Assembly (NCBI GenBank): GCA_913058495.1
Contig: CAJXQC010000028.1
Coordinates: 1 to 35,662 of the forward strand
DNA length: 35,662 bases
Direction of reading: 5' to 3'
From: an uncultured Balneola sp.
GTDB taxonomy: Bacteria; Bacteroidota; Rhodothermia; Balneolales; Balneolaceae
Shown: positions 1,645-29,409 of the stretch, piece after piece
Layout: every line of letters begins with the position of its first letter
Position numbering within the stretch: position 1 is the stretch's first letter
Position numbers and translations under genes: made by a program
The notes under the pieces: generated by a model
Told to the model about the DNA's origin: nothing
Seen by the model: the letters and a program-made list of their open reading frames with translations, nothing else
Databases searched by the model: none

Positions 1645-2385
1645 TTAAATTTTTCGGCTCAGTTCTTCAAGCATCAATAGACCCTGATCATATGTATCAA
1701 TTTGCTTTCTAATCTGATAGAGCCGGGCAAAAATGTAAGCCTCCATCTTTCTATCAGATAAAAAATATTCAATATCAAAAGAAATAGGAGGTCTTTGGTC
1801 ATCTTTATAGAGAGGAACAAACATATCATTTGTATTACCTTTTCCCCAAATTTGGCTGTACTTATCAAATACAAAAGTCTCATATTGATGTATAAACCGA
1901 TTAGATATCTCTTCTCTTTCTTGAATTGCTTCTGTCGATAGATAATATTTGGATATAGAGTTCTGAATATCTGAATTAAGTGCATCTAAACTTCCCGAAG
2001 AAATTAATAGATCAATACCGTTGGTTCGGGGTTTAAAATTGAATTCCAGGAGTAGTTGTGCAATATTGCCGGCAATTGAATCATTAGGTTCGGTTTTTAA
2101 TTGAATAATGTCCGACATGTTCAAGGCCATACGTTCTCTGTCATAGGCGTTATGTATGAGATCTTGAAGTTGTTCTTTATCATCTTCGAGATTTTGCTTT
2201 AGTATTTTTAGATGATACTGAGCAGTTTGTGATTGATTGTTTTTCTCATTCCAGTTATTGACCTGAAGCGCCAACAAAATCCCGATCATTACCAAAGCAA
2301 TTTCTCCAACAGCGTAGAAGAGATAGGTACGAACTTTATTCTGTTCCATAAGTTTTTTTCGTATTTGTCTAAAAAATCTCAGCAT
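1645..2385 (-). CDS. DUF6090-type membrane-anchored protein, array copy 10 (last)
   Basis: 246 aa. Basic amphipathic start MLRFFRQIRKKLMEQNKVR, one membrane helix at about residues 21-42 (YLFYAVGEIALVMIGILLAL), then the family signature QVNNWNE at 41-47. The remainder is a predominantly helical, divergent soluble part with a degenerate central family motif (LLISSGSLDALNSDI, about 126-140). The function of DUF6090 proteins is unknown. Topology is inferred: the positive N-terminus suggests it stays inside, leaving the variable part outside the membrane. The start overlaps the end of the repeat flanking the GxxExxY gene. It is the last gene of the array in transcription order. Confidence 0.9.
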   Translation of the reverse strand: MLRFFRQIRKKLMEQNKVRTYLFYAVGEIALVMIGILLALQVNNWNEKNNQSQTAQYHLKILKQNLEDDKEQLQDLIHNAYDRERMALNMSDIIQLKTEPNDSIAGNIAQLLLEFNFKPRTNGIDLLISSGSLDALNSDIQNSISKYYLSTEAIQEREEISNRFIHQYETFVFDKYSQIWGKGNTNDMFVPLYKDDQRPPISFDIEYFLSDRKMEAYIFARLYQIRKQIDTYDQGLLMLEELSRKI

Positions 2386-2868
2386 AAGAATCGCGGATTT
2401 TAAGGATTAGATGATTTCACGGATTTATCTTGAGTCAAAACCAAGCGCTTAAAGGTCATACTTTTTGAACCAAAATTAATGAGTAAGCCAACTTCTAATT
2501 TATAGGCCTTTAAATAATTTAAAGCTTGAGCAATGTGTACATCTTCCAGTTCAATTACAGCTTTAATCTCCACCAGTACTTTGTTTTCAACTACAAAATC
2601 AGCTCTTCTTGTTCCAATTGGTTTTGGAAGATCTTTATAGTAGATCTGCTGTTCAATTTCTCGCTGAAAACTTAATCCTGCTTTTTGAAACTCATGAGAC
2701 AATGCTCTTTGATAAATTATTTCTTGAAACCCATTTCCTAAGAATGAGTGGACATCAAAAGACGCTCCTATAATTTTCTTTGTTATATCCTGATATTTCA
2801 AATCCGCGCTCATCCGAAAATCTAATTAATCCATGGTTCAAAAGTTGATATGAGGAAAAAACGAAACA
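2386..2868 (-). repeat. GxxExxY-bearing form of the array spacer repeat
   Basis: The junction between array copies 9 and 10. In coding direction it begins with a relic DUF6090 start: the stop of copy 9 overlaps ATG as TAATG at 2869-2867, and the relic reads MFRFFLISTFEPWIN and stops (2822-2869). Repeat sequence TTGAACCATGGATTAATTAG follows, then the GxxExxY gene (2400-2813), then the other repeat end AATCCTTAAAATCCGCGATT and the ATG of copy 10. The two ends match the ends of the six short spacers elsewhere in the array (for example TTTGAACCGCTGATTAAA and AATCCTTCAAATCTGCGGTT at 4550-4676). This makes it the long, gene-carrying version of that repeat. Confidence 0.7.
2400..2813 (-). CDS. GxxExxY protein (PD-(D/E)XK nuclease-like fold)
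   Basis: 137 aa. The family name motif is at 28-34 (GFQEIIY) inside GNGFQEIIY. A PD-(D/E)XK-like core follows: D72 in RRADFVV and the E82-x-K84 pair in VEIKAV. Family members are small, common in Bacteroidota and often embedded in intergenic repeats. Nuclease activity is presumed from the fold and I know of no established function. The start codon lies just inside one repeat arm, and the C-terminal tail DKSVKSSNP is encoded by the other arm. That tail is nearly the same as the DKSAKSLNP translated from the array's short spacer frames. It is the only non-DUF6090 protein gene inside the array. Confidence 0.85.
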   Translation of the reverse strand: MSADLKYQDITKKIIGASFDVHSFLGNGFQEIIYQRALSHEFQKAGLSFQREIEQQIYYKDLPKPIGTRRADFVVENKVLVEIKAVIELEDVHIAQALNYLKAYKLEVGLLINFGSKSMTFKRLVLTQDKSVKSSNP

Positions 2869-3615
2869 TTAATTTGAATTATTTAGAAGAGTTAAAAGAT
2901 CTTCAGTCTCTAATTTTAGTTCTTCTGTGATTTCTATTCCTACCTCATTCACAGCTTTCATTGTATTTAGAAAAGTGTAAAACTTTCGGCGAGCATTTAC
3001 CCAGTTTACGTTGTTCCATATATCGTTTTCAACAGCGGAGTTTATCTGAATTTTAAATTCGGGGAAGTAGAAAGGAACCTCAGCGATAAAATCTTCACTT
3101 AAATTATATTTCAGTTGAAGATTATCAGTTATCATAACCCGATAAACTTTTTGAAGTGAATTCAGGTCCAGTAATCTAAACTGGATGATTTCGTCCAACA
3201 GGTCAACTCTGCCGGTATTTTGAAGAGTCAGAAATGTATTGTTGTTCAGATTAGCATTCTCAAAAGTCTGAATAATATCAAGATTGGTTTTGATGAGCTC
3301 ATTAAAATCGGAATTGGTTAAAGAAGGCTCAGATAGTATTTCTTCCAGACTGTCAATTTGAGATAACTGAAAAGACAGATCTTCTATTTGATACTCAAAA
3401 TTTTCAATATCCAATATTAGATCTTCTTTTAAAGCAGTTAAGTAGGATTCTGCTAGATCAGCTTTTTTTCTTTCTTCATTCCAGTTATTAACCTGAAGAG
3501 CGAGTAAGATCCCGACCATTACCAGTGCAATTTCACCTAAAGCATAAAGGAGGTATTTTCGAACGTTATTTTGTTCCATAAGTTTTTGTCGTATTTGTCT
3601 AAAAAATCTCAGCAT
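2869..3615 (-). CDS. DUF6090-type membrane-anchored protein, array copy 9
   Basis: 248 aa from the ATG at 3615. A longer open frame extends upstream to 3744, but its extra 43 residues are spacer repeat, and the family start MLRFFRQIRQKLMEQNNVRK fixes the true start. Anchor helix about 21-42 (YLLYALGEIALVMVGILLAL), then QVNNWNE. The soluble part is rich in Leu, Ile and Glu and probably helical. The central motif is degenerate (NTFLTLQNTGRVDLLDEII). Its stop codon overlaps the relic start of the next junction (TAATG). Confidence 0.9.
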   Translation of the reverse strand: MLRFFRQIRQKLMEQNNVRKYLLYALGEIALVMVGILLALQVNNWNEERKKADLAESYLTALKEDLILDIENFEYQIEDLSFQLSQIDSLEEILSEPSLTNSDFNELIKTNLDIIQTFENANLNNNTFLTLQNTGRVDLLDEIIQFRLLDLNSLQKVYRVMITDNLQLKYNLSEDFIAEVPFYFPEFKIQINSAVENDIWNNVNWVNARRKFYTFLNTMKAVNEVGIEITEELKLETEDLLTLLNNSN

Positions 3616-3826
3616 AGGAATCGCGGATTTGTAGGAGTGAGGGATGGCGCGGAGTTGTGGTTTGTCACTTCGAGCGAAGGGGAGACATCTAAAGATCCTT
3701 GAACTACCATCAACATCTTTAGATGTCTCGCAGTAGCTCGACATGACAAATAAGAGAAAGTCCGAGTTAATCCTGTAGTCAGTTTAATCAGCGGTTCAAA
3801 TAGTATTTGACGGCAGAAGTGAAGCA
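3616..3826 (-). repeat. Array spacer repeat with open 72-codon bridging frame and nested palindrome
   Basis: In coding direction the stop of copy 8 overlaps an ATG (TAATG, 3827). From it a 72-aa frame (3609-3827) reads MLHFCRQILFEPLIKLTT..., passes through the spacer without a stop and ends in ATGCTGA over the start of copy 9. The first 8 residues are a copy of the DUF6090 start; the rest is repeat-encoded. Nested inside is an 88-bp palindromic element (3662-3749) with imperfect TTGTCA...TGACAA ends and a perfect 14-bp inner inverted repeat (AGACATCTAAAGAT at 3683-3696 with its complement at 3715-3728). Translation of the short frame is possible but unproven. Confidence 0.7.
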
Positions 3827-4549
3827 TTAATTTCCAGCTTCTATGAGTTCTATAGTTTCGTCGATATGCCCTAAAAGTTTTTCATAAATCACTATGTATT
3901 GAATAGTAACTGAATTAACCAATGCTACCAAGTTTTTGTAATCTACATCGTACATCAGGTTAATTACAGCTTCTTCATTATATTTATTACCTCTCATCCA
4001 AGCATTAAATTCAACCAGCATCTGTCTATCTATAAAATACCCAACAACATTTTCATTCCAGAGGTCATCGGCAGTTGATTGTACCGAAGTGGACTTTTCA
4101 TATTCATTTTTAATGTGCCGTAGCTTAAGTGATAGTTCATTTTTATCGCTGATTAACTGCTCTGAACCTAATTCTTGTTGCAGAACTGGTAAATCTAATG
4201 TTACGGAAGCAGAACTGATCAACCTGAAAATGCGACTCGGGTTTGTTTTGAGTGAATCCGTATAAGATTCTGAATTCAAATATTGATTTGACCAGTTTAA
4301 AAACATTTTGTTTACCACCAGCGACTCTTCTACCTCGACTTTGGCTTCTTCCAACTCAACAACTAGCTTTTGAATAGTAGTCTCAGAAACCTGATCTGCT
4401 TTTCGCTCCTCATTCCAGTTATTGACTTGAAGAGCCAGCAGAATCCCGATCATTACTAGTGCTATTTCACCAATCGCATATAGGAGATAAGTACGAACTT
4501 TATTCTGTTCCATAAGTTTTTTTCGGATTTGTCTAAAAAATCTCAGCAT
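3827..4549 (-). CDS. DUF6090-type membrane-anchored protein, array copy 8
   Basis: 240 aa. Start MLRFFRQIRKKLMEQNKVRT and anchor helix YLLYAIGEIALVMIGILLAL are almost identical to copy 10, then QVNNWNEERKADQ. Beyond residue ~55 it shares little with copy 10. The central family motif is barely recognisable (LQQELGSEQLISDKNELSLKLRHI), and the C-terminus ends in a helical stretch (KLLGHIDETIELIEAGN). The near-identity of anchors against divergent soluble parts is clearest in this pair. Confidence 0.9.
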   Translation of the reverse strand: MLRFFRQIRKKLMEQNKVRTYLLYAIGEIALVMIGILLALQVNNWNEERKADQVSETTIQKLVVELEEAKVEVEESLVVNKMFLNWSNQYLNSESYTDSLKTNPSRIFRLISSASVTLDLPVLQQELGSEQLISDKNELSLKLRHIKNEYEKSTSVQSTADDLWNENVVGYFIDRQMLVEFNAWMRGNKYNEEAVINLMYDVDYKNLVALVNSVTIQYIVIYEKLLGHIDETIELIEAGN

Positions 4550-4676
4550 AGGAACCGCAGATTTGAAGGATTTAGGGATTTCGCTGATTTGACACGAATT
4601 AGCATCTGTGTTAATCCTGTAATCAGTTTAATCAGCGGTTCAAATGGTATTTGGCGGAAGAAGCGAAGCATTTTGG
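4550..4676 (-). repeat. Array spacer repeat, basic short form, with open 42-codon frame
   Basis: This copy has no nested palindrome. An ATG lies 5 nt after the stop of copy 7 (ATG at 4671-4669). The frame (4543-4671, 42 aa) reads MLRFFRQIPFEPLIKLITGL, continues TQMLIRVKSAKSLNPSNLRFLC, and its TGA overlaps the next start as ATGCTGA (4549-4543). The DNA between the two MLRFFRQI codings is a short repeat with similar outer segments (TTTGAACCGCTGATTAAA near one end, CAAATCTGCGGTTC near the other). The tail KSAKSLNP corresponds in frame to the C-terminus of the GxxExxY protein at 2400-2813. Confidence 0.75.
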
Positions 4677-5495
4677 TTATTTTGATCCGTATTCTTTACG
4701 CAATAGTTGAATGATCTGTGTTGCCATTTTTTTAGCATTAGGGAATTCATTTTCAGCTCTGATTCTCATTCCAAAGCTTAAGGGGATGGCATGATTAACG
4801 GCAATTTTAAGTTCATTCAGGTTATCCGTTAAAAGCTCCAGATCATTACTCCTGTAGTTTTGATAATCCTCAAGAGTATTGAAATCAGGTATTCCATCTA
4901 CCGGCATATTATACCAATTAGGCAATAAATCGGCTGATTGAGGGTAATTGGAGTCGATTACTTTCCGAATTGCACTACCAAATGTTTTTGCCGATTCATC
5001 ATCATAGATCAGATCTTTATCCAGATGATTAGTTAAAGCTTCATAGCGATTCAGCAGGCTAAGAAGGCTGTCGTTCTCTACATAGCGAAGAGCACCGGAG
5101 CTCTTTAATTCTTCAAAAGTAGAGCGACTCCAGGCAATGGCTCTGTAAGAATTTCTGCTGGAAAGCAAATAAACATCAATATTACTAGCTTCATTTATGC
5201 TTTGTAAGTCTCTGCTGTAGGTGATCAAACTATCAAGTAACAAATAAGCAGCTTTTGTTTGATGAATACCTATATCCAATGCCGTAATATCATTTTCCAG
5301 ATCATGTATCATAGCGCTTGCAAAGGAATCTAATTCCTTGGATAATCTTCTTTGCTCGTTCCAGTTATTCACCTGAAGAGCAAGCAGAATCCCTATCATT
5401 ACCAACAGAATTTCTCCTAAGGCATACCAAATGTATTTTCGCATATTTTCTTGCTCTATGAGTTTTTTTCGGATGGTTCGGAAGAATTTTAGCAT
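4677..5495 (-). CDS. DUF6090-type membrane-anchored protein, array copy 7
   Basis: 272 aa. It belongs to the MLKFFRTIR start class (MLKFFRTIRKKLIEQENMRK), with anchor YIWYALGEILLVMIGILLAL and QVNNWNEQRR. The central family motif is well kept: STFEELKSSGALRYVENDSLLSLLNRYEAL. The extra length lies in the last third (DLLPNWYNMPVDGIPDF...). No repeat spacer precedes it: the stop of copy 6 is 11 nt upstream. Copies 6 and 7 form an MLRFF/MLKFF pair like copies 4 and 5. Confidence 0.92.
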   Translation of the reverse strand: MLKFFRTIRKKLIEQENMRKYIWYALGEILLVMIGILLALQVNNWNEQRRLSKELDSFASAMIHDLENDITALDIGIHQTKAAYLLLDSLITYSRDLQSINEASNIDVYLLSSRNSYRAIAWSRSTFEELKSSGALRYVENDSLLSLLNRYEALTNHLDKDLIYDDESAKTFGSAIRKVIDSNYPQSADLLPNWYNMPVDGIPDFNTLEDYQNYRSNDLELLTDNLNELKIAVNHAIPLSFGMRIRAENEFPNAKKMATQIIQLLRKEYGSK

Positions 5496-5506
5496 ATTAT
5501 TTAATC

Positions 5507-6256
5507 TTAATGGTTAGTCAATTCTTCATTTATCATGCCTAGCAACTGCTCCATTTGCGTTCTGTTCTGCGCTAAGGGTACTTTACTATATCTTGTGGCA
5601 TTAAAAGATTCGCTCAGGATATCTGCAAAAATAGGCGAGTCAAGAAAATCAAAATTCTCTACAATCAACGTTTTTTCCAAAGCCTGACCACTTCTTTCAA
5701 CCTGTATATCGAATAGCAGATCAAAATACCTGAACTTTGCATCGATTGAACCCCTGATTATCTCATTGATCCATGCATCTGCTGATGGAAGCGAAAAACT
5801 GTACAGTTTTGCGATTTCATTTCTCAACGAGTCGTTTGAGATTTTATCAAGACCACTAGATTTTAAGGCCTCGTAAGGTCCTTCATTATATGCTATATAA
5901 ACTCCGAAGCCCCAAACAGAATCTAGGTGGTGACGTACACTGTCTATCTCGAGGCTTCTTCTGTCATCCATATTTGAGGCATCCGTTAGGTAGAATATTG
6001 ATTCTTCCAAGTTCGAGATCATGTCTTCTAATAGCCTGAAGTTGCCAATATCGTTTACTAATGCCACGCTAAGCTCAATTAGCATCCGGTGCTCATAGAT
6101 TTTTTCTTTCCGGTTTTCATTCCAATTGTTTACCTGCAATGCCAACAGGATCCCAATCATCACCAGTAGAATTTCACCTAAAGCATACCACAGGTATTTA
6201 CGAACATTTTCCTGCTTAATGAGTTTCTTTCGTATTTGTCTAAAAAATCTCAGCAT
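5507..6256 (-). CDS. DUF6090-type membrane-anchored protein, array copy 6
   Basis: 249 aa. Start MLRFFRQIRKKLIKQENVRK, anchor YLWYALGEILLVMIGILLAL, then QVNNWNENRKEKIYEHRML. Central motif GPYEALKSSGLDKISNDSLRNEIAKLYSF. It belongs to the same subfamily as copy 4: both share GPYEALK, the LYxF ending and a later 'PxF...L' segment (DSPIFADILSE here, KNPDFLTTLND in copy 4). It is preceded by a repeat spacer and followed 11 nt later by copy 7. Confidence 0.92.
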   Translation of the reverse strand: MLRFFRQIRKKLIKQENVRKYLWYALGEILLVMIGILLALQVNNWNENRKEKIYEHRMLIELSVALVNDIGNFRLLEDMISNLEESIFYLTDASNMDDRRSLEIDSVRHHLDSVWGFGVYIAYNEGPYEALKSSGLDKISNDSLRNEIAKLYSFSLPSADAWINEIIRGSIDAKFRYFDLLFDIQVERSGQALEKTLIVENFDFLDSPIFADILSESFNATRYSKVPLAQNRTQMEQLLGMINEELTNH

Positions 6257-6410
6257 AGGAAGGGAGGATTTTTAGGATTTAGGGATGGCACGGTTTTGTA
6301 GTTTATACATAAAATCCGTACTAATCCAAACATCTGGTAAATCCAAAACTTCGCCAAGGCTTCGGTTTGCAGGAGCGGATCAAAAGGTATTTTTCGGAAA
6401 AAGTGGAGCA
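6257..6410 (-). repeat. Array spacer repeat with divergent interior and open 53-codon frame
   Basis: The stop of copy 5 overlaps an ATG (TAATG, 6411). The frame (6250-6411, 53 aa) starts MLHFFRKIPFDPLLQTEALA, runs through without stops to VPSLNPKNPPFLC and ends in ATGCTGA at the start of copy 6. The end next to copy 6 (AGGAAGGGAGGATTTTTAGG, plus strand) is identical to the matching end of the spacer at 10115-10346, so those two ends may be recently duplicated or converted. The interior differs from the other spacers (a CGCCAAGGCTTCGG-type stretch around 6351-6364). Confidence 0.65.
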
Positions 6411-7181
6411 TTATTTGGTAATCCTATTTAATTCCTTTTTCAGCGTTTCTTTAAGTTCCCTGGCAACATTTAATCGTCCATCATAGGTTTCATATGTTCT
6501 AACTTTACTTTGCACGATATAAGGCAGCCATGAAACAAATTCGTCCCTTTCTATAAATCTGGCATATACTGCCTCAGCATCTTCACTAGTAAATTCAATT
6601 TTTTCTCTAAAACTTCCCATTGTAATTTGTTGCTTAGCATCTAAAATCCCTACTCTGTAATCCAGATATTTTAGCTGTAAATCTTCGGTAATAAACCGAT
6701 ACTGATTCCTATTTTCTGCATTGGTATAATACACTGAAATGGCATTACGCACTTCTTCATTTCGGATCAATGATAATTTTCCGGATGATTTTATCTCTTC
6801 AAAAGTTTGATTTGAAATAACAGGCGTAGATGTATATCCGGCATATTCTATACTTTCAATAAAGTAGCTGGGGTTCTCAGCTATCAGTGATTTATCTTTG
6901 CTGGCATTTATTAAAAATAGAGCTCGTTCTTTTCGGTACTCGTCGGTAGTAATCGCTCTGGAAATATTCTCGATATCGGTATTCACTTCTGTAATCAGCC
7001 TATCTAAATACCTGATCTCTGTTTTTAAATCTTTTTGAGTTTCATTCCAATTGTTAATCTGAAGTGCAATTAGAATCCCGATGACCAATAGAAAGATTTC
7101 GCCCAAGGCATACCAGAAATATTTACGCATATTTTCCTGCTTAATGAGTTTTTGGCGGATGGTTCGGAAGAATTTTAGCAT
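6411..7181 (-). CDS. DUF6090-type membrane-anchored protein, array copy 5
   Basis: 256 aa. MLKFFRTIRQKLIKQENMRK start class, anchor YFWYALGEIFLLVIGILIAL, QINNWNETQKDLKTEIRYL. Central motif QTFEEIKSSGKLSLIRNEEVRNAISVYYTN. The end is Lys/Glu-rich and helical (ARELKETLKKELNRITK). It starts directly after the stop of copy 4 with no spacer (TAA then ATG). Its own TAA overlaps the ATG of the next bridging frame. Confidence 0.92.
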   Translation of the reverse strand: MLKFFRTIRQKLIKQENMRKYFWYALGEIFLLVIGILIALQINNWNETQKDLKTEIRYLDRLITEVNTDIENISRAITTDEYRKERALFLINASKDKSLIAENPSYFIESIEYAGYTSTPVISNQTFEEIKSSGKLSLIRNEEVRNAISVYYTNAENRNQYRFITEDLQLKYLDYRVGILDAKQQITMGSFREKIEFTSEDAEAVYARFIERDEFVSWLPYIVQSKVRTYETYDGRLNVARELKETLKKELNRITK

Positions 7182-7928
7182 TTAGTTCAATTCCTTGTTT
7201 AAACTTTCCTTCAAACTTTTCATATCACTTATTAGTGAATTGATAATTGCTCGTTCAGTTTCACTTCGGTCACTCATATCATTCAGCGTTGTTAAGAAAT
7301 CAGGATTTTTAAATAAATCAGATGGGAATTTTGAGACTATTCTTTGTTCACCTTCAATAACTACAATAAGTGGTTCTTCGAGAAAAGATTTAAGCCTTTC
7401 TCTTTGTCGTACATAATCAGCGGTAAAGAACTCTATAAGGCTTCTCGTTCTGGGCTCACTAAAATCATACAAATAGATTAGCTTGTTTCTAAGATCTTCT
7501 GAACGAACTACATTTAAACCCTCGGCTTTCAACGCTTCGTATGGCCCTCTGTTTGCCTGAAATACGATGCCTGTCATTAATTGATACCATCTGCCTTCAT
7601 TGCTTTTCCTAATGTAAAGCGAATCAATAAAATCCACTTTCATCGATGCTTTCTTTTTCATTTCTACAATAGAAGAATCCATTTTTGTTAATCTTAGGGT
7701 TAGCCCGTCCAGATAATTAATATCCTTTTCAAGTGCGCTATTGATTTCGCCAAGCATTTGGATTTCATATTCGCGATCTACCCGGTTCTCATTCCAATTG
7801 TTAACCTGTAAGGCAATCAATATGCCTATCACTACCAAAAGAATTTCTCCTAAAGCATACCATACATATTTTCGGATATTTTCTTGCACGATAAGTTTTT
7901 GGCGAATTTGTCGGAAGAATCTCAGCAT
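7182..7928 (-). CDS. DUF6090-type membrane-anchored protein, array copy 4
   Basis: 248 aa. Start MLRFFRQIRQKLIVQENIRK, anchor YVWYALGEILLVVIGILIAL, QVNNWNENRVDREYEIQML. Central motif GPYEALKAEGLNVVRSEDLRNKLIYLYDF places it with copy 6. Ends in a coiled-coil-like MKSLKESLNKELN. It is preceded by a short repeat spacer and abuts copy 5, so copies 4+5 and 6+7 look like the products of an old two-gene duplication. Confidence 0.92.
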   Translation of the reverse strand: MLRFFRQIRQKLIVQENIRKYVWYALGEILLVVIGILIALQVNNWNENRVDREYEIQMLGEINSALEKDINYLDGLTLRLTKMDSSIVEMKKKASMKVDFIDSLYIRKSNEGRWYQLMTGIVFQANRGPYEALKAEGLNVVRSEDLRNKLIYLYDFSEPRTRSLIEFFTADYVRQRERLKSFLEEPLIVVIEGEQRIVSKFPSDLFKNPDFLTTLNDMSDRSETERAIINSLISDMKSLKESLNKELN

Positions 7929-8053
7929 GGGAAACGCGGATTTGTAGGATTCAGGGATTTCGCTGATTTGTCAGGAACTAAAATCCGTGATAATCCTGAA
8001 ATCATTTTAATCAGCGGTTCAAATGGTATTTGGCGGAAGAAACGTAGCATAGT
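7929..8053 (-). repeat. Array spacer repeat, basic short form, with open 42-codon frame
   Basis: Sister of the spacer at 4550-4676. The ATG (8050-8048) sits 3 nt after the stop of copy 3. The frame (7922-8050, 42 aa) reads MLRFFRQIPFEPLIKMISGL, then SRILVPDKSAKSLNPTNPRFPC, and ends in ATGCTGA over the start of copy 4. The stretch DKSAKSLNP aligns residue for residue with the GxxExxY C-terminus DKSVKSSNP. The first eight codons encode the DUF6090 start with TTC/CGC codons, unlike some full genes of the array that use AGA/TTT. Confidence 0.75.
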
Positions 8054-8827
8054 TTACCGGGTTTTTAATTCTTCATTAATAGCCTGTTCCAAATCAACCA
8101 ACCTTGCAATTAATCTATGGCTTTGCACCATTCTATTTATCCTGTTATATAATGATTTATGTAATAAAACTTGTACTTCCTTATCATTTAATAATTCATC
8201 ATATTGGCGCATTCCCAGCTTATAAGTAGTTAACTCAACTCCGGTTTCTTCATCTTTAAACCGAACAATTTCTGAGGTGTCAACAGCTACGTACTTTACA
8301 ATATGAGGCGTTAAATCAATGGTCGGGTTATCAAATTTTTCAAATTCTCTGCCTTGTTTTACCATTAGATCAGTATAGTGTCCAAATGTCCTAATAATTA
8401 ATTGTCGCAGGTCTTCATTTTCGATGATGTCAACTCCTGCTGCATTTAGTTCTTCGTACCCAACCATGCGTGGTGAAAACTGCAAGCTATTGCTGGTTAA
8501 ACGTATGTGATGGGATAATGAATCATAGGTAGGGCGTTTTTGGATAAAATGCTCTAACACTCGTTTTGTGTTGTTTACGAATGTTTGTTCAGCATTTCTA
8601 TCATTGGCTAAATCTTGTTTATTGACTTTGATATCTTCTAAAAGCTCTTCCAGAATACCCACTTCTTTTATTCTGTTTTTACGGTATTCATTCCAGTTGT
8701 TGATCTGCAGGGCTATTAAAATCCCAATCACAACCAAAAGGATTTCACCAAGCGCATAAAGAAGATATTTTCTGGTTTTATCAGACATAAGCAAGTTTTT
8801 TCGTATTTGGCGGAAGAATCTAAGCAT
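8054..8827 (-). CDS. DUF6090-type membrane-anchored protein, array copy 3
   Basis: 257 aa. MLRFFRQIRKNLLMSDKTRK start, anchor YLLYALGEILLVVIGILIAL, QINNWNEYRKNRIKEVGIL. Central motif GYEELNAAGVDIIENEDLRQLIIRTFGH. The first ~45 residues after the anchor resemble a coiled coil (EVGILEELLEDIKVNKQDLAN). The start codon overlaps the end of the preceding bridging frame in a slightly different register (ATGCTTAG rather than ATGCTGA). Confidence 0.92.
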   Translation of the reverse strand: MLRFFRQIRKNLLMSDKTRKYLLYALGEILLVVIGILIALQINNWNEYRKNRIKEVGILEELLEDIKVNKQDLANDRNAEQTFVNNTKRVLEHFIQKRPTYDSLSHHIRLTSNSLQFSPRMVGYEELNAAGVDIIENEDLRQLIIRTFGHYTDLMVKQGREFEKFDNPTIDLTPHIVKYVAVDTSEIVRFKDEETGVELTTYKLGMRQYDELLNDKEVQVLLHKSLYNRINRMVQSHRLIARLVDLEQAINEELKTR

Positions 8828-9043
8828 GGGTTTTGAACCGCAGATTTTTGGGATTAAGGGATGGCACTGATATATATCTTGTCACTTTGAGCGGTAGCGA
8901 GAAGTCTAAAGATCTCGAATCCCTAAGCATGATTTTTAGATATCTCACATTCGTTCGATATGACAAACGATTAAAAATCTGTGTTAATCCTAAAATCAGT
9001 TTAATCAGCGGTTCAAATGGTATTTGACAGAAGAAGCGTAGCA
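8828..9043 (-). repeat. Array spacer repeat with nested palindrome and open 74-codon frame
   Basis: The stop of copy 2 overlaps an ATG (TAATG, 9044). The frame (8820-9044, 74 aa) begins MLRFFCQIPFEPLIKLILGL and ends KNLRFKTHA; its TAG overlaps the start of copy 3. An 88-bp element (8879-8966) of the same family as 3662-3749 is nested inside, with TTGTCA...TGACAA ends and a more decayed inner stem. It has the same length as the 3662-3749 copy but is clearly diverged from it. Confidence 0.65.
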
Positions 9044-10114
9044 TTATGGATCGATCACCACAATTTTATCCCAACTTACGGCATACTGCCGCTCACAGGT
9101 ATTATTAGTGCCCACTTGCAGAAATGGAAAATCCCTGCTCGTTGCGGTTAAAATGTACTCTCTAGGTTCTAAGGTGCTGATCACATAATTTTCATTTGTT
9201 ACCGGATTATGATGGTAGAGCTGTACAGGCTCTGTAGTGTTATTATAAACCGGATACCAGAGATAAAACGTGCCGAAACTCTCATCCAACGTTTTTACAA
9301 TTTCGTCACTACATGGTACTTCTTTTGCTCTTTCATAGCCGACTTCTTCCATTTGTTCAAAAATTGAGGCCATACTCTTTTCCTTGATCAGTTTCTGAAA
9401 TTCTATCCAGACAGATATCTGGTATTTTATGAATATCTCATACTGTTGTAAGAACGACTCATTGGATTCCTGGTAACTACGCAAATGATTCCTGAAGCGG
9501 GTGTTGGAATGAAAGAATTCGATTCGTTGCTTAAAACTTTCTTCATCCGTTTTATACATCCATTCTTCAGCTCTAAGGTAGCGTAGGTTTTCACGTTGCA
9601 TACTCTTTAACTCTTCCAATTCTGAATTCATCATTTTAAAGGCAGCATCCAGCCTGCGCGTATAAAAAAGAATACGATTGAATTTTTCGGGAAACTGACG
9701 TTCGTTCTCCAAAATCGTATTTATATTTTCATTAAAGAACCAACCGGAAAAATCAGTAGTTAACATTGGATTGATGATCAGGTCTCGGGGTTCTACCATT
9801 CGCGACTTGTCCAACAGATCAGGCTTAAGAGTTTTGTTGAAGATGTGATAGTGAACTGAGTCGAGCTGTATTGCAGGAGCCAGATGATGAGCCAGGTCTC
9901 TTAACGTATTACTCTCTATCGCATTTGCAAAGTCCGTCATGACTCTTATCGCTTCTTCTTCTTGCTTTCGTTGCTCGTTCCAGTTGTTGATTTGCAAGGC
10001 CAGAAGAATCCCGATCATTACTAACAGAATCTCCCCTAAAGCATACCAAATGTATTTGCGCATATTTTCCTGCGTAATGAGTTTTTGGCGGATTTGTCTA
10101 AAAAATCTCAGCAT
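9044..10114 (-). CDS. DUF6090-type membrane-anchored protein with extra C-terminal domain, array copy 2
   Basis: 356 aa, about 100 residues longer than its neighbours. Standard start MLRFFRQIRQKLITQENMRK, anchor YIWYALGEILLVMIGILLAL and QINNWNEQRKQEEEAIRVM. A helical middle section follows. The last ~90 residues change character to a beta-rich, Pro/Tyr/Asn-containing module (FGTFYLWYPVYNNTTEPVQL ... YVISTLEPREYILTATSRDF) with Cys near each end. The pattern 'NNTTEPVQLY...STLEPREYILT' recalls VHL-type beta domains, a weak resemblance judged by eye. It is the outlier of the array. Confidence 0.88.
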   Translation of the reverse strand: MLRFFRQIRQKLITQENMRKYIWYALGEILLVMIGILLALQINNWNEQRKQEEEAIRVMTDFANAIESNTLRDLAHHLAPAIQLDSVHYHIFNKTLKPDLLDKSRMVEPRDLIINPMLTTDFSGWFFNENINTILENERQFPEKFNRILFYTRRLDAAFKMMNSELEELKSMQRENLRYLRAEEWMYKTDEESFKQRIEFFHSNTRFRNHLRSYQESNESFLQQYEIFIKYQISVWIEFQKLIKEKSMASIFEQMEEVGYERAKEVPCSDEIVKTLDESFGTFYLWYPVYNNTTEPVQLYHHNPVTNENYVISTLEPREYILTATSRDFPFLQVGTNNTCERQYAVSWDKIVVIDP

Positions 10115-10346
10115 AGGAAGGGAGGATTTTTAGGATTTAGGAATGGTACGGTTTCGTGGCTTATCACTTCTGCCGAAGGCATCACTTTGTGAGAGGGTAG
10201 CGAGAAGTCTAAAGATCCTTGAACTACCATCAAAAGCTTTAGATGTCTCGCAGTAGCTCGACATGACAAATAAGAGAAAATCCATATTAATCCAGTAATC
10301 AGTTTAATCAGCGGTTCAAACATTATTTGGCGGAAGAATCGGAGCA
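10115..10346 (-). repeat. Array spacer repeat with enlarged nested palindrome and open 79-codon frame
   Basis: The stop of copy 1 overlaps an ATG (TAATG, 10347). The frame (10108-10347, 79 aa) reads MLRFFRQIMFEPLIKLITGL and ends VPFLNPKNPPFLC, with its TGA inside ATGCTGA over the start of copy 2. The nested element (10161-10268) matches 3662-3749 closely over its right half (CTTTAGATGTCTCGCAGTAG) and has about 20 bp extra on the left. This is the longest of the bridging frames and still has no internal stop. Confidence 0.68.
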
Positions 10347-11141
10347 TTAGTTATTCTTCTCCAAAGATTTGTTAATTTCATTTACAATTAGCTCAGAAAG
10401 TTTGAACTGTTCTTTTAATGGCTCAAATCCTCCACGAATAGCTGACATAAAAAACCCCAGTTCTCCCATCAATTCTTCATTGTTGGTTAACTTGTTCAAT
10501 ATTTCACCGGCTTTTTCTTCGGTAATAACCGGATCACATTTGTGTAATACTTGAATGTCACCGACAGTCTCATGGCATTCATCCCACATGTAATCCAGAA
10601 TAGAGAAAGGTATCTGCATTCGGGCCATTTTACGGTACGGTGGGTTTATACCAATAGTACTCTGGTATCTGGACGTTCCACCTCCGTAGTAATATCCCAG
10701 CCGGTCTCTTAAGACTGAATTATTAAGTATAGACAACTCACCGGCACTTTTTAATTCTTCATAGGTTGCACTTTCGATAATAATGGGCCAGATTTGACTG
10801 GCATGGAAGGCATCTACCAGTAGTTCCCAGTTTGTGTATTTAAGATCATTCATACCATCTGAATAGTCTAATACTTTTATCCCACTCTTGAGAACCAGAT
10901 CATAAAATTCGATATTTGATTTATAAAATTCTATATCAGTATTTAAATCTCTTAGCAAAAGATTCAGATATACTTGTTCTCTGTTTTTCTTTAATCTCTC
11001 TTCATTCCAGTTATTAACCTGAAGCGCTAAGAGAATACCAATCATTACTAGAGCAATTTCACCAATAGCATATAAGAGGTATTTGCTGAATTTGCTTTCA
11101 GAAAGGAGAGCCTGACGTACCCGTCGAAAAAACTTAAACAT
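10347..11141 (-). CDS. DUF6090-type membrane-anchored protein, array copy 1 (first)
   Basis: 264 aa. Its N-terminus, MFKFFRRVRQALLSESKFSK, differs from the other nine and resembles the second cluster at 27627-29140 (RQKLLSESKFSK). Anchor YLLYAIGEIALVMIGILLAL, QVNNWNEERLKKNREQVYL. Central motif ATYEELKSAGELSILNNSVLRDRLGYYYGG. Contains two Cys (WDECHETVGD, LHKCDPV). No repeat spacer precedes it and 86 bp separate it from the PepSY gene, so the array promoter probably lies at 11142-11227. I found no promoter motif there that I would defend. Confidence 0.92.
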   Translation of the reverse strand: MFKFFRRVRQALLSESKFSKYLLYAIGEIALVMIGILLALQVNNWNEERLKKNREQVYLNLLLRDLNTDIEFYKSNIEFYDLVLKSGIKVLDYSDGMNDLKYTNWELLVDAFHASQIWPIIIESATYEELKSAGELSILNNSVLRDRLGYYYGGGTSRYQSTIGINPPYRKMARMQIPFSILDYMWDECHETVGDIQVLHKCDPVITEEKAGEILNKLTNNEELMGELGFFMSAIRGGFEPLKEQFKLSELIVNEINKSLEKNN

Positions 11142-27420: not shown

Positions 27421-27496
27421 AGCAGCTCCTGTTTGATCTCACAACATACTAAAAAGCAGTTATTTGGCAAAGAAAACAGTTCTGGATAAGTTCCGG

Positions 27497-27592
27497 TTAG
27501 AATTTATATGTTCCGTATGGACTAAACACCGGAAGAAATAAAAACTTACTGTATTGGATTTCAGAAAGGAGTTTTTGGAAGAATTTTAGCAT
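27497..27592 (-). pseudogene. Truncated remnant of a third DUF6090 gene
   Basis: From the ATG at 27592 the frame reads MLKFFQKLLSEIQYSKFLFL, then PVFSPYGTYKF and a stop. The first ~16 residues correspond to the neighbours' MLKFFRKIRQKLLSESKFSKY with a small deletion. After that the sequence becomes the repeat at 27498-27544. It is a broken 5' end, not a functional gene. Confidence 0.65.
27498..27544 (-). repeat. REP-like repeat, downstream copy flanking the DUF6090 pair
   Basis: 47 bp in the same orientation as, and about 41/47 identical to, 29147-29194. The core TTCCGTATGGA is a decayed form of the palindrome GTCCCTACGGGAC. Confidence 0.6.
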
Positions 27593-27626
27593 GGAATGCA
27601 GAATATCGAACCTTTAATTTTCTAAC

Positions 27627-28388
27627 TTAATTATTAGCGTTCAAATATTCATTGATTGTTTTAATGAGTTGCTCTGCCGTTAAAATTGCATCTTTTGACA
27701 ACTCAATTTCACTACCGGCTCGTAACCTTCTCCCGATAAGTGAATTTTCAAAAACGGTACTTTCTTTTAATATCTTGGTATTATCAAGTAATGGATTCCG
27801 TTTTTTCGGATAGGGATTTGAGTTTTGTAAGAGCGAACCAAACTCCATATTGTTATACGTAAAGACTTCCATATGATTTTTGACGAATTGATTGTTCTGG
27901 CTGATAATGTTTGAAATTTTGCCAACCAAAGCATAGTAATTATAAATTTCTTGGGTTAAATCTTGATTCTCAATCCACTGAAAATGAGATCCCGATTCCA
28001 TTGAATTGAATGCTGTAGCAGTTGGTAAAAATGTTCTTTCTGTAGCTACATCAAAAATGCTATCGGCAAAAGCCGACAGAGGCATGTTTTCATATTTAGA
28101 TAATGAAATAATACGAAAAGAAAAGTCAACAGCCTCTAACACAGACTCATTATAGTTTATTTGCGTATTTAGGTTTCGTATATCCTCTTGAAGGTTTATT
28201 CTTAATGAGGTCAGAGATGCATTTAATATAGCTTGCTCTTTTTTTGCTTCATTCCAATTATTAATCTGTAAAGCAATCAAAATTCCTATTACAACCAATA
28301 CAATCTCACCAACCGCATATATGAGATATTTACTGAACTTACTTTCAGACAACAATTTCTGACGGATTTTTCTAAAGAATTTTAGCAT
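27627..28388 (-). CDS. DUF6090-type membrane-anchored protein, second cluster, gene B
   Basis: 253 aa from the ATG at 28388. A TTG three bases upstream could extend it by one residue, but the family start MLKFFRKIRQKLLSESKFSK argues for the ATG. Anchor YLIYAVGEIVLVVIGILIAL, QINNWNEAKKEQAIL. Central motif TAFNSMESGSHFQWIENQDL and then YNYYALVG. The stop of gene A overlaps the start as TGATG, a clear sign of translational coupling. Confidence 0.93.
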   Translation of the reverse strand: MLKFFRKIRQKLLSESKFSKYLIYAVGEIVLVVIGILIALQINNWNEAKKEQAILNASLTSLRINLQEDIRNLNTQINYNESVLEAVDFSFRIISLSKYENMPLSAFADSIFDVATERTFLPTATAFNSMESGSHFQWIENQDLTQEIYNYYALVGKISNIISQNNQFVKNHMEVFTYNNMEFGSLLQNSNPYPKKRNPLLDNTKILKESTVFENSLIGRRLRAGSEIELSKDAILTAEQLIKTINEYLNANN

Positions 28389-29140
28389 CAATTATTTGAT
28401 AAAGTTTCAGTTTCTTTGATTATGCGATGTATAATCGGTACGAGACTCTCCAAAGAATTAAGATAGTTCTTTAAATCCCAGGCTTGATTATCTACCACGT
28501 TCTCAAATTCTAAATCATGAAACAATTTGTGATGGCTATTATATAATTTAGATTTCTTTTCCCATGCCAAAAAACTATAATGATCGATATTCTTCATAGA
28601 AGCATTTTTTGTTAAATAGGGCAGGTACAATGTTTGATTGATCTCATCTAAAGTTTCATATCCTTCACGGCTACCTTCCATCAATACCGACCACTCGTAA
28701 ATATAAAGTCGAAGTGAATCTGAACGAATGAGATTCAATCTGCCCGATGAATTTAAATCTGAGATAACAGATTGGCTTGGAGTATATTCGGTATAATCCA
28801 AACTATTGGCTATTAGGCTATCCAAGTTGTGTTGTCCTAACACCTCAGCAGGTTCTCCAATTAGTGACATAATATTTCGGGTAGACTCATATATTTTTTC
28901 ATGATGAGCAATATATATATTGAGTACTTCCCGGTTCTTGGTGAACTCTACATGCAGGTTTTGAATGATCTGCTTTTCTTCGTTTCTCTTTTCAACTTCA
29001 TTATTCCAATTATTGATCTGTAAGGCAATCAAAATTCCTATTACAACCAATACGATTTCACCAACCGCATAGATCAGATATTTACTGAACTTACTTTCAG
29101 AGAGAAGCTTTTGGCGGATTTTTCGGAAGAATTTTAGCAT
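28388..29140 (-). CDS. DUF6090-type membrane-anchored protein, second cluster, gene A
   Basis: 250 aa. Its first 42 residues are identical to those of gene B (MLKFFRKIRQKLLSESKFSK, YLIYAVGEIVLVVIGILIAL), after which the two diverge strongly. Central motif SVISDLNSSGRLNLIRSDSLRLYIYEWSVL. It is preceded by the REP-like repeat at 29147-29194. It shows the same plan as the large array 17 kb away: a conserved anchor and a divergent soluble domain. Confidence 0.93.
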   Translation of the reverse strand: MLKFFRKIRQKLLSESKFSKYLIYAVGEIVLVVIGILIALQINNWNNEVEKRNEEKQIIQNLHVEFTKNREVLNIYIAHHEKIYESTRNIMSLIGEPAEVLGQHNLDSLIANSLDYTEYTPSQSVISDLNSSGRLNLIRSDSLRLYIYEWSVLMEGSREGYETLDEINQTLYLPYLTKNASMKNIDHYSFLAWEKKSKLYNSHHKLFHDLEFENVVDNQAWDLKNYLNSLESLVPIIHRIIKETETLSNN

Positions 29141-29146
29141 AGTTCA

Positions 29147-29194
29147 TAGAATTTAAATGTCCCGTAGGGACTATACACTGGTAGAAATAAAAAA
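29147..29194 (-). repeat. REP-like repeat, upstream copy flanking the DUF6090 pair
   Basis: 48 bp ending 6 bp before the start of gene A. Contains the perfect palindrome GTCCCTACGGGAC (29159-29171 on the plus strand). A direct copy lies at 27498-27544 beyond gene B. The rest of 29141-29409 shows no gene. Confidence 0.6.
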
Positions 29195-29409
29195 GCCCCC
29201 AAGCACCAGTTGCCTTTAGGTACCTTATATAATTATCCAATAGGTTTGAAGATATATTTTTTATCGTAATCCACATCAAATTTATTTAGGAACTCAAGAT
29301 ATTCTTCCTGAAAAGTTTTGTTTTTGTGATGTTGTTCCTAGTTTTGAATGTATTTGATAACCTAGGGAGTTGAGATATTGAAGGGGTAGGAGTCCTGTTT
29401 ACATAGGAG

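Follow-up and report, generated by a model that had tools for sequence, protein, structure and literature searches.

Open frames across repeat-derived spacers as putative ribosome bridges between DUF6090 paralogs in Balneolaceae

The window described here, a stretch of 35,662 nucleotides (nt) on contig C28 of a Balneolaceae bacterium, contains ten tandem paralogs of the DUF6090 family (PF19578), all of them minus-strand genes, of which the first starts at 11141 and the last ends at 1645. Nine junctions separate these genes, and at six of them the spacer is traversed by one open reading frame (ORF) that starts at the end of one paralog and terminates over the start codon of the next. We regard these frames as probable stop-free ribosome bridges between the paralogs, whose peptide would be a by-product, and a comparison with related genomes makes it reasonably likely that selection has maintained the frame and not the peptide. 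The spacers themselves appear to be left over from palindromic repeat elements like those that also enclose GxxExxY genes, and each follows a copy of a DUF6090 gene start.

The six frames had been noticed in an initial annotation of the window, and their coordinates, lengths, start forms and end forms were all confirmed in our ORF lists. Four of them start as TAATG (3827, 6411, 9044 and 10347) and the other two at 3 nt (8050) and 5 nt (4671) past the upstream stop, which corresponds to start steps of -1, +3 or +5; five end as ATGCTGA and the sixth (8820–9044) as ATGCTTAG, so that they overlap the next start by 7 or 8 nt.

10108–10347, minus strand: bridging frame 1, 79 codons, TAATG start, ATGCTGA end, nested palindrome (ORF list)
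8820–9044, minus strand: bridging frame 2, 74 codons, TAATG start, ATGCTTAG end, nested palindrome (ORF list)
7922–8050, minus strand: bridging frame 3, 42 codons, start 3 nt past the upstream stop, ATGCTGA end (ORF list)
6250–6411, minus strand: bridging frame 4, 53 codons, TAATG start, ATGCTGA end, further 30-nt insert (ORF list)
4543–4671, minus strand: bridging frame 5, 42 codons, start 5 nt past the upstream stop, ATGCTGA end (ORF list)
3609–3827, minus strand: bridging frame 6, 72 codons, TAATG start, ATGCTGA end, nested palindrome at 3661–3750 (ORF list)
3661–3750, minus strand: nested palindrome of frame 6, with arms 3661–3696 and 3715–3750 (repeat analysis)

Each of the six spacers consists of a copied gene start and an imperfect palindrome. 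Read in gene sense, it opens with the copied start, about ATGCTNCGCTTCTTCCGNCAAATA, which encodes MLRFFRQI, and continues with the left arm TTTGAACCGCTGATTAAACTGATT..., a variable middle and the right arm ...AATCCGCGGTTC, before the next gene starts, mostly as ATGCTGAGATTTTTTAGACAAAT. In three of the six, a second palindrome of about 90–110 nt lies in mid-spacer, and the frame stays open in spite of it, as the initial annotation had observed; one spacer holds a 30-nt insert instead. A repeat dispersed throughout the genome was rejected as an explanation for this genome, where all 10 spacer matches (query 4535–4680, E<0.01) lie within the array.

Expectations for bridging were derived from dinucleotide-preserving shuffles. 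Shuffled versions of the six window spacers are bridged in 0.6–6.6% of cases per spacer, so that the openness, for which the initial annotation had suggested a simulation of this type, exceeds chance. Since the six window copies share ancestry, relatives were tested as well. A spacer was counted as bridged if it holds an ORF whose start lies -8 to +12 nt from the stop of the preceding gene and whose end lies -12 to +20 nt from the next start; the count covers spacers of 20–500 nt at 18 loci in 14 genomes, with genes located by one script, and leaves aside longer spacers, including those with a transposase. Within the genus (genomes G000, G001, G002, G004 and G005, representing five species), 23 of 24 spacers are bridged against 1.74 expected, the sole unbridged one being a GxxExxY spacer. 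Outside the genus, bridges are found in two of three spacers of G032 and in the single spacers of G030 and G101, with 0.03–0.04 expected per genome, while G020 has no spacer of 20–500 nt, its genes mostly overlapping or nearly so. As a control within the window, 1 of 13 same-strand spacers beyond the array is bridged (27–555 nt; genes hand-picked from the ORF lists).

Some inserts with a different origin have bridges as well. Two paralogs of G002 and of G004 are separated by an insertion of ~0.8 kb with an IS200-type transposase, and because the site looks alike in both genomes, we take the two insertions to be one event. The transposase (G002 copy scanned) matches PF01797 and scores above the cut-off of NF033573 and below that of the REP-associated type. 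Three ORFs span the insertion, with steps of +5, 0, -4 and -1 in G002 and of -1, 0, -4 and -1 in G004: upstream of the transposase, a broken DUF6090 start is open for 61 and 67 codons up to the transposase start, and the transposase stop overlaps a 47-codon frame, which ends as TAATG on the next paralog. Likewise, the bridged spacers of G030 (one of one) and G032 (two of three) contain different palindromes, of the GTCATTCCTGC type.

Selection on the frame was assessed in an alignment of 29 spacers built of the copied start, here called the 5' tag, and the palindrome; they come from ten genomes, and 21 of them belong to the genus. This alignment leaves out spacers with a different make-up, namely the 55-nt and transposase spacers, the one from G030 and two from G032. 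The GxxExxY spacers in G000 and G034 were likewise omitted, as were copies outside arrays, two terminal copies that have lost their downstream gene (G004, G005), and a third copy in G106, which ends 12 nt ahead of a broken gene. Parsimony on a FastTree tree yielded the changes private to one spacer, each of which was then reassigned at random to another site with the same base (2000 permutations). In the spacer frame, the genus has a single new stop where 7.6 are expected (P=0.0035), and all 29 spacers together have 3 where 13.2 are expected (0 of 2000 permutations as low); the species that the initial annotation had not seen have 3 where 10.2 are expected (P=0.005). The +1 and +2 frames gain stops as often as expected, and net new stops in the three reverse frames are at expectation, too. 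The deficit persists in all 29 spacers without the 5' tag (3 against 10.0, P=0.008) and, more weakly, in the genus without G000 (1 against 4.7, P=0.04). Peptide change in the genus is near neutral, with 40 synonymous changes against 44.6 and 113 nonsynonymous ones against 114.8, and over all 29 spacers nonsynonymous changes are slightly low (205 against 222.5, P=0.01). The codon-position bias of private changes is not significant, either in the genus (58, 60 and 66; P=0.69) or in all 29 spacers (112, 111 and 137; P=0.13). It is because stops are avoided in the spacer frame only, and because synonymous and nonsynonymous changes are neutral in the genus, that selection appears to keep the frame rather than the peptide; peptide drift combined with stop avoidance is what a bridge would predict.

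Several points weigh against this reading. The six window spacers are copies of one another and not six independent events, and the limits that define a bridge were chosen after the spacers had been inspected. Among the 23 bridged spacers of the genus are two of only 55 nt, shuffles of which are bridged in 33% of cases. Outside the genus, no bridge is found in the four spacers of G017 or in the single spacers of G106, G007 and G018, and the large DUF6090 array of G014 has 5 of 21 spacers bridged, with 1.65 expected; given these zeros and the low fraction in G014, DUF6090 arrays are not bridged as a rule. Starts behind bridges are not enriched in an overlapping stop (18 of 20 against 21 of 27 distinct starts, p=0.44). 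The stop test, for its part, hangs on one alignment, one FastTree topology and parsimony, with spacers that are related by descent. The deficit is 1 against 3.2 (P=0.16) when both G000 and the 5' tag are omitted from the genus, and 2 against 5.6 (P=0.07) outside the genus alone; a sixfold correction, the spacer frame being one of six, leaves about 0.02 for the genus. Furthermore, the +1 frame in the genus has a deficit of synonymous changes (23 against 38.3) that is without explanation. A covariation of the incoming frame with a stop in the next gene start was eye-catching, too; it was dropped, as the early-stop test was non-significant and confounded by the stops of directly coupled genes.

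The private changes are sufficient for 7.6 new stops in the genus and 13.2 in all spacers, where 1 and 3 are seen, and the other frames do acquire stops at the expected rate. We therefore consider it unlikely that the openness reflects the inertia of descent, i.e. that an ancestral repeat was open by chance and was copied along the array, with copies too young to have gathered stops. The spacers are indeed homologs of one another, and searches at the chosen sensitivity found them in Balneolaceae only (matches in 13 of 92 genomes of the family at E up to 1e-4 and in 8 of 394 genomes of the phylum at E up to 1e-6, all eight of them Balneolaceae), and several of the short ones are open in a reverse frame as well; yet such inertia would not extend to those spacers of different origin that are bridged. 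Moreover, the spacer frame runs open through the nested palindrome at 11 of 11 places within arrays and at 2 of 12 places outside them (matches of at least 67 nt in their better orientation, read without gaps, shorter matches being uncounted), a comparison that is supportive only, as the copies within arrays are closer kin and mostly gapless. Copies of tag and palindrome outside arrays were found at three loci (L053, L104 and L105), two of them closed and one open. At L053 (1350–1550, G005), a copied start with a closed frame and its palindrome lie between unrelated genes and are accompanied by an apparent, decayed second start.

Frameshifted or stop-containing relatives, to which the initial annotation had pointed as a check, were sought among the 29 aligned spacers. 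Four frames stop short of the next start, by 12, 19, 19 and 20 nt (G001_3386, G017_5974, G017_3049a and G106_1835); G005_8355 has a 1-nt deletion and extends 17 nt beyond the next start; and G032_5131 has a frame shift near its start, followed by a later in-frame ATG. When the last is counted from this ATG, all 29 frames reach to within 20 nt of the next start or beyond it. As to the accompanying question whether indels are multiples of three, the larger ones (3, 21, 30 and about 90 nt) look like such multiples when judged by eye, and a minimum of four small ones do not.

In a ribosome bridge, selection would hold one stop-free frame across each spacer between co-directional DUF6090 paralogs. 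A ribosome finishing one paralog would restart at once in the spacer frame (TAATG), traverse the repeat, terminate over the next start codon (ATGCTGA) and restart there, and the spacer peptide would be a mere consequence. From sequence comparison, we infer that the array is co-transcribed, that the frames are translated with reinitiation at either end, and that loss of a bridge would lower downstream expression. A study on termination-reinitiation (PMC10666635) reports on six tested gene pairs, in which coupling was abolished at 22–23 nt (Haloferax) and cut by 80–100% at 38 nt (E. coli), and takes a stop-start distance of -8 to +10 nt as predicting termination-reinitiation. At the six window junctions, both the start and the end distances fall inside this range; some ends in relatives lie beyond it (+12, +19, +19, +20 and -17). 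Given the loss of coupling in the six tested pairs, an unbridged spacer of 110–230 nt would be expected to uncouple the paralogs. An unbridged repeat would also be expected to leave its hairpin untranslated, and a frame from stop to start would avoid both. The initial annotation's proposal that the frames keep ribosomes loaded along the operon thus receives evolutionary support, from stop avoidance in species it had not seen, from the bridging of some unrelated inserts and from junction distances in the range given by PMC10666635, with translation itself as the putative element.

The same stop deficit would result from spacer translation if the open frames guarded against Rho-dependent termination or kept the hairpin melted, with reinitiation beside the point. 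The nested palindromes in three of the six spacers would suit this explanation, and RNA of 3612–3756 folds to -46.8 kcal/mol (z -5.96); two of five folded stretches are weak, however (z -0.71 and -1.91), one of them with a nested palindrome. On its own, protection of this kind is quite improbable, for it leaves the placement of the start (-8 to +12 nt) and the end (-12 to +20 nt) of 23 of 24 genus frames unexplained, but both effects may combine. Finally, small proteins that begin like DUF6090, the alternative suggested in the initial annotation and here taken as membrane-associated, are a very improbable product of the frames: the N-terminus MLRFFRQI...FEPLI is common to spacers of several genera and the slight nonsynonymous deficit over all 29 spacers would agree with this, but synonymous and nonsynonymous changes in the genus stand in a neutral ratio, the +1 frame deviates more than the spacer frame, codon positions show no significant bias, the body of the long spacers consists largely of nested repeats, and the two of six frames that were scanned match no Pfam or NCBIfam family, not even the DUF6090 profile, to which the likeness is limited to the first ~8 residues. 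Taken together, the data support a ribosome hand-over by termination-reinitiation, or a protection from polarity, and speak against small proteins.

A seventh spacer of the array (2386–2868), which the initial annotation had overlooked, contains a GxxExxY gene flanked by arms like those of the bridging spacers. The gene scores 133.2 bits with TIGR04256 (cut-off 35 bits), and its 3' end extends into the right arm of the palindrome. This spacer has no single open frame; instead, two ORFs follow each other in relay across it, and the steps are -1, +8 and +14 nt.

2822–2869, minus strand: 15-codon tag frame (MFRFFLISTFEPWIN), TAATG start, TAG end 8 nt before the GxxExxY gene (ORF list)
2400–2813, minus strand: GxxExxY protein gene (TIGR04256 / PF13366 PDDEXK_3), between two DUF6090 paralogs (profile match)

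GxxExxY is present in 58 of 89 genomes of Balneolaceae, and in G000, G004, G005, G034 and G017 the gene lies inside DUF6090 arrays or at their edge. What lies ahead of one shared downstream gene varies: G001 has a bridge there, G000 the GxxExxY spacer, and G002 a direct junction, with a different upstream gene. At other GxxExxY loci, direct repeats exceed shuffles in 14 of 28 cases and inverted repeats in 9 of 28; these are the loci returned by the search and not all matches, and three of 31 were dropped as no ORF was found. In the nine direct-repeat loci that were inspected, the repeats are mostly tandem copies of the repeat itself, and a target-site duplication was for this reason not established as the source of the copied gene start. 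At six of the loci (L172, L174, L175, L177, L183 and L184), the gene lies among direct repeats of ~110–220 nt that hold imperfect palindromes, whose arms vary between loci. L114 (150–900, G103) features two tandem units, each of a decayed DUF6090 start, an arm, a shortened GxxExxY gene and another arm, followed by a third decayed start, and thus a repeat unit without an intact downstream gene.

These loci invite a broader scenario, which we put forward tentatively and consider rather doubtful: palindromic elements linked to the GxxExxY PD-(D/E)XK nuclease would be mobile, insert at gene starts and leave a start-restoring copy of the target on each side, and selection for an open through-frame would keep them translationally transparent, so that paralog arrays could collect inserts without polarity.

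Apart from the six bridged spacers and the GxxExxY spacer, the array has two direct junctions without insert, with a gap of 0 at 7181/7182 and of 11 at 5495/5507. Eight of its ten genes pass the cut-off of the DUF6090 profile, and the remaining two (3827–4549 and 2869–3615) score just below it.

10347–11141, minus strand: DUF6090 paralog, first in the array (profile match)
9044–10114, minus strand: DUF6090 paralog, entered from bridging frame 1 (profile match)
8054–8827, minus strand: DUF6090 paralog, entered from bridging frame 2 (profile match)
7182–7928, minus strand: DUF6090 paralog, entered from bridging frame 3 (profile match)
6411–7181, minus strand: DUF6090 paralog, gap 0 after 7182–7928 (profile match)
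5507–6256, minus strand: DUF6090 paralog (profile match)
4677–5495, minus strand: DUF6090 paralog, 11 nt past the stop of 5507–6256 (profile match)
3827–4549, minus strand: DUF6090 paralog (profile score under cut-off)
2869–3615, minus strand: DUF6090 paralog (profile score under cut-off)
1645–2385, minus strand: DUF6090 paralog, last in the array (profile match)

The window contains a second DUF6090 pair on the minus strand (28388–29140 and 27627–28388), which overlaps by 1 nt as TGATG. In this region (27480–29400), the pair is flanked by GTCCCTACGGGAC-like repeat ends and an apparent transposase tail, and near 27590 a fragment of a DUF6090 start leads into a GTCCCTACGGGAC-like repeat end. 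In G014 (C2:76000–132000; L089, L090 and L091), the genome has 47 DUF6090 matches, many of those listed lying within ~55 kb; the first 50 residues of these proteins are much alike and the remainder is divergent, as if a membrane anchor had been kept and the rest diversified.

In the literature searched, we found nothing similar for Balneolaceae and no paper that names DUF6090. If the spacer frames are indeed ribosome bridges, they represent a natural case, with a measurable signature, of selection on the openness of a frame rather than on its peptide, and an annotation of such frames as small proteins or as non-coding spacers would mislead. They would also suggest how operons tolerate the insertion of repeats, and they would tie the little-studied, nuclease-like GxxExxY family to repeats that lie where genes meet.

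The closest parallel that we know of are the mycobacterial interspersed repetitive units (MIRUs), which are said to have been described by Supply et al. in 1997. According to a 2025 review (PMC12548453), they are apparently mobile repeats that insert at start codons, where their ORF is coupled to the gene. The window spacers share the features described there, namely a repeat at the start codon and an internal ORF that overlaps the start of the next gene. They differ in that this overlap is mostly 7–8 nt, as opposed to 4 (a spacing of -4 nt) in the MIRUs of that account; in that their host, a member of the Balneolaceae, belongs to another phylum and is not mycobacterial; in that their palindrome is joined to a copy of the target gene's 5' end and to nested repeats of several kinds; and in that one gene family is their usual site, with a GxxExxY gene in some copies. 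Thus, the Balneolaceae spacers would work like MIRUs as the review portrays them, but we do not file them as such, because host and spacing differ and the comparison is one of descriptions. In the GxxExxY family (TIGR04256, PF13366), for which the literature passage available to us does not mention repeats, the gene lies in or beside DUF6090 arrays, whereas the bridging spacers lack it. In-frame miniature inverted-repeat transposable elements (MITEs), such as the Rickettsia palindromic elements and ERIC, are likewise small palindromic repeats with contiguous open frames (PMC2229807); these are described as fused in frame inside a protein, whereas the frame described here is intergenic and ends at the next start. 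Translational coupling by termination-reinitiation (PMC10666635) is alike in that stop and start codons overlap or lie within about 10 nt of each other; such coupling normally joins two genes with products of their own, whereas here the link would be formed by repeat-derived frames whose peptide is seemingly unconstrained.

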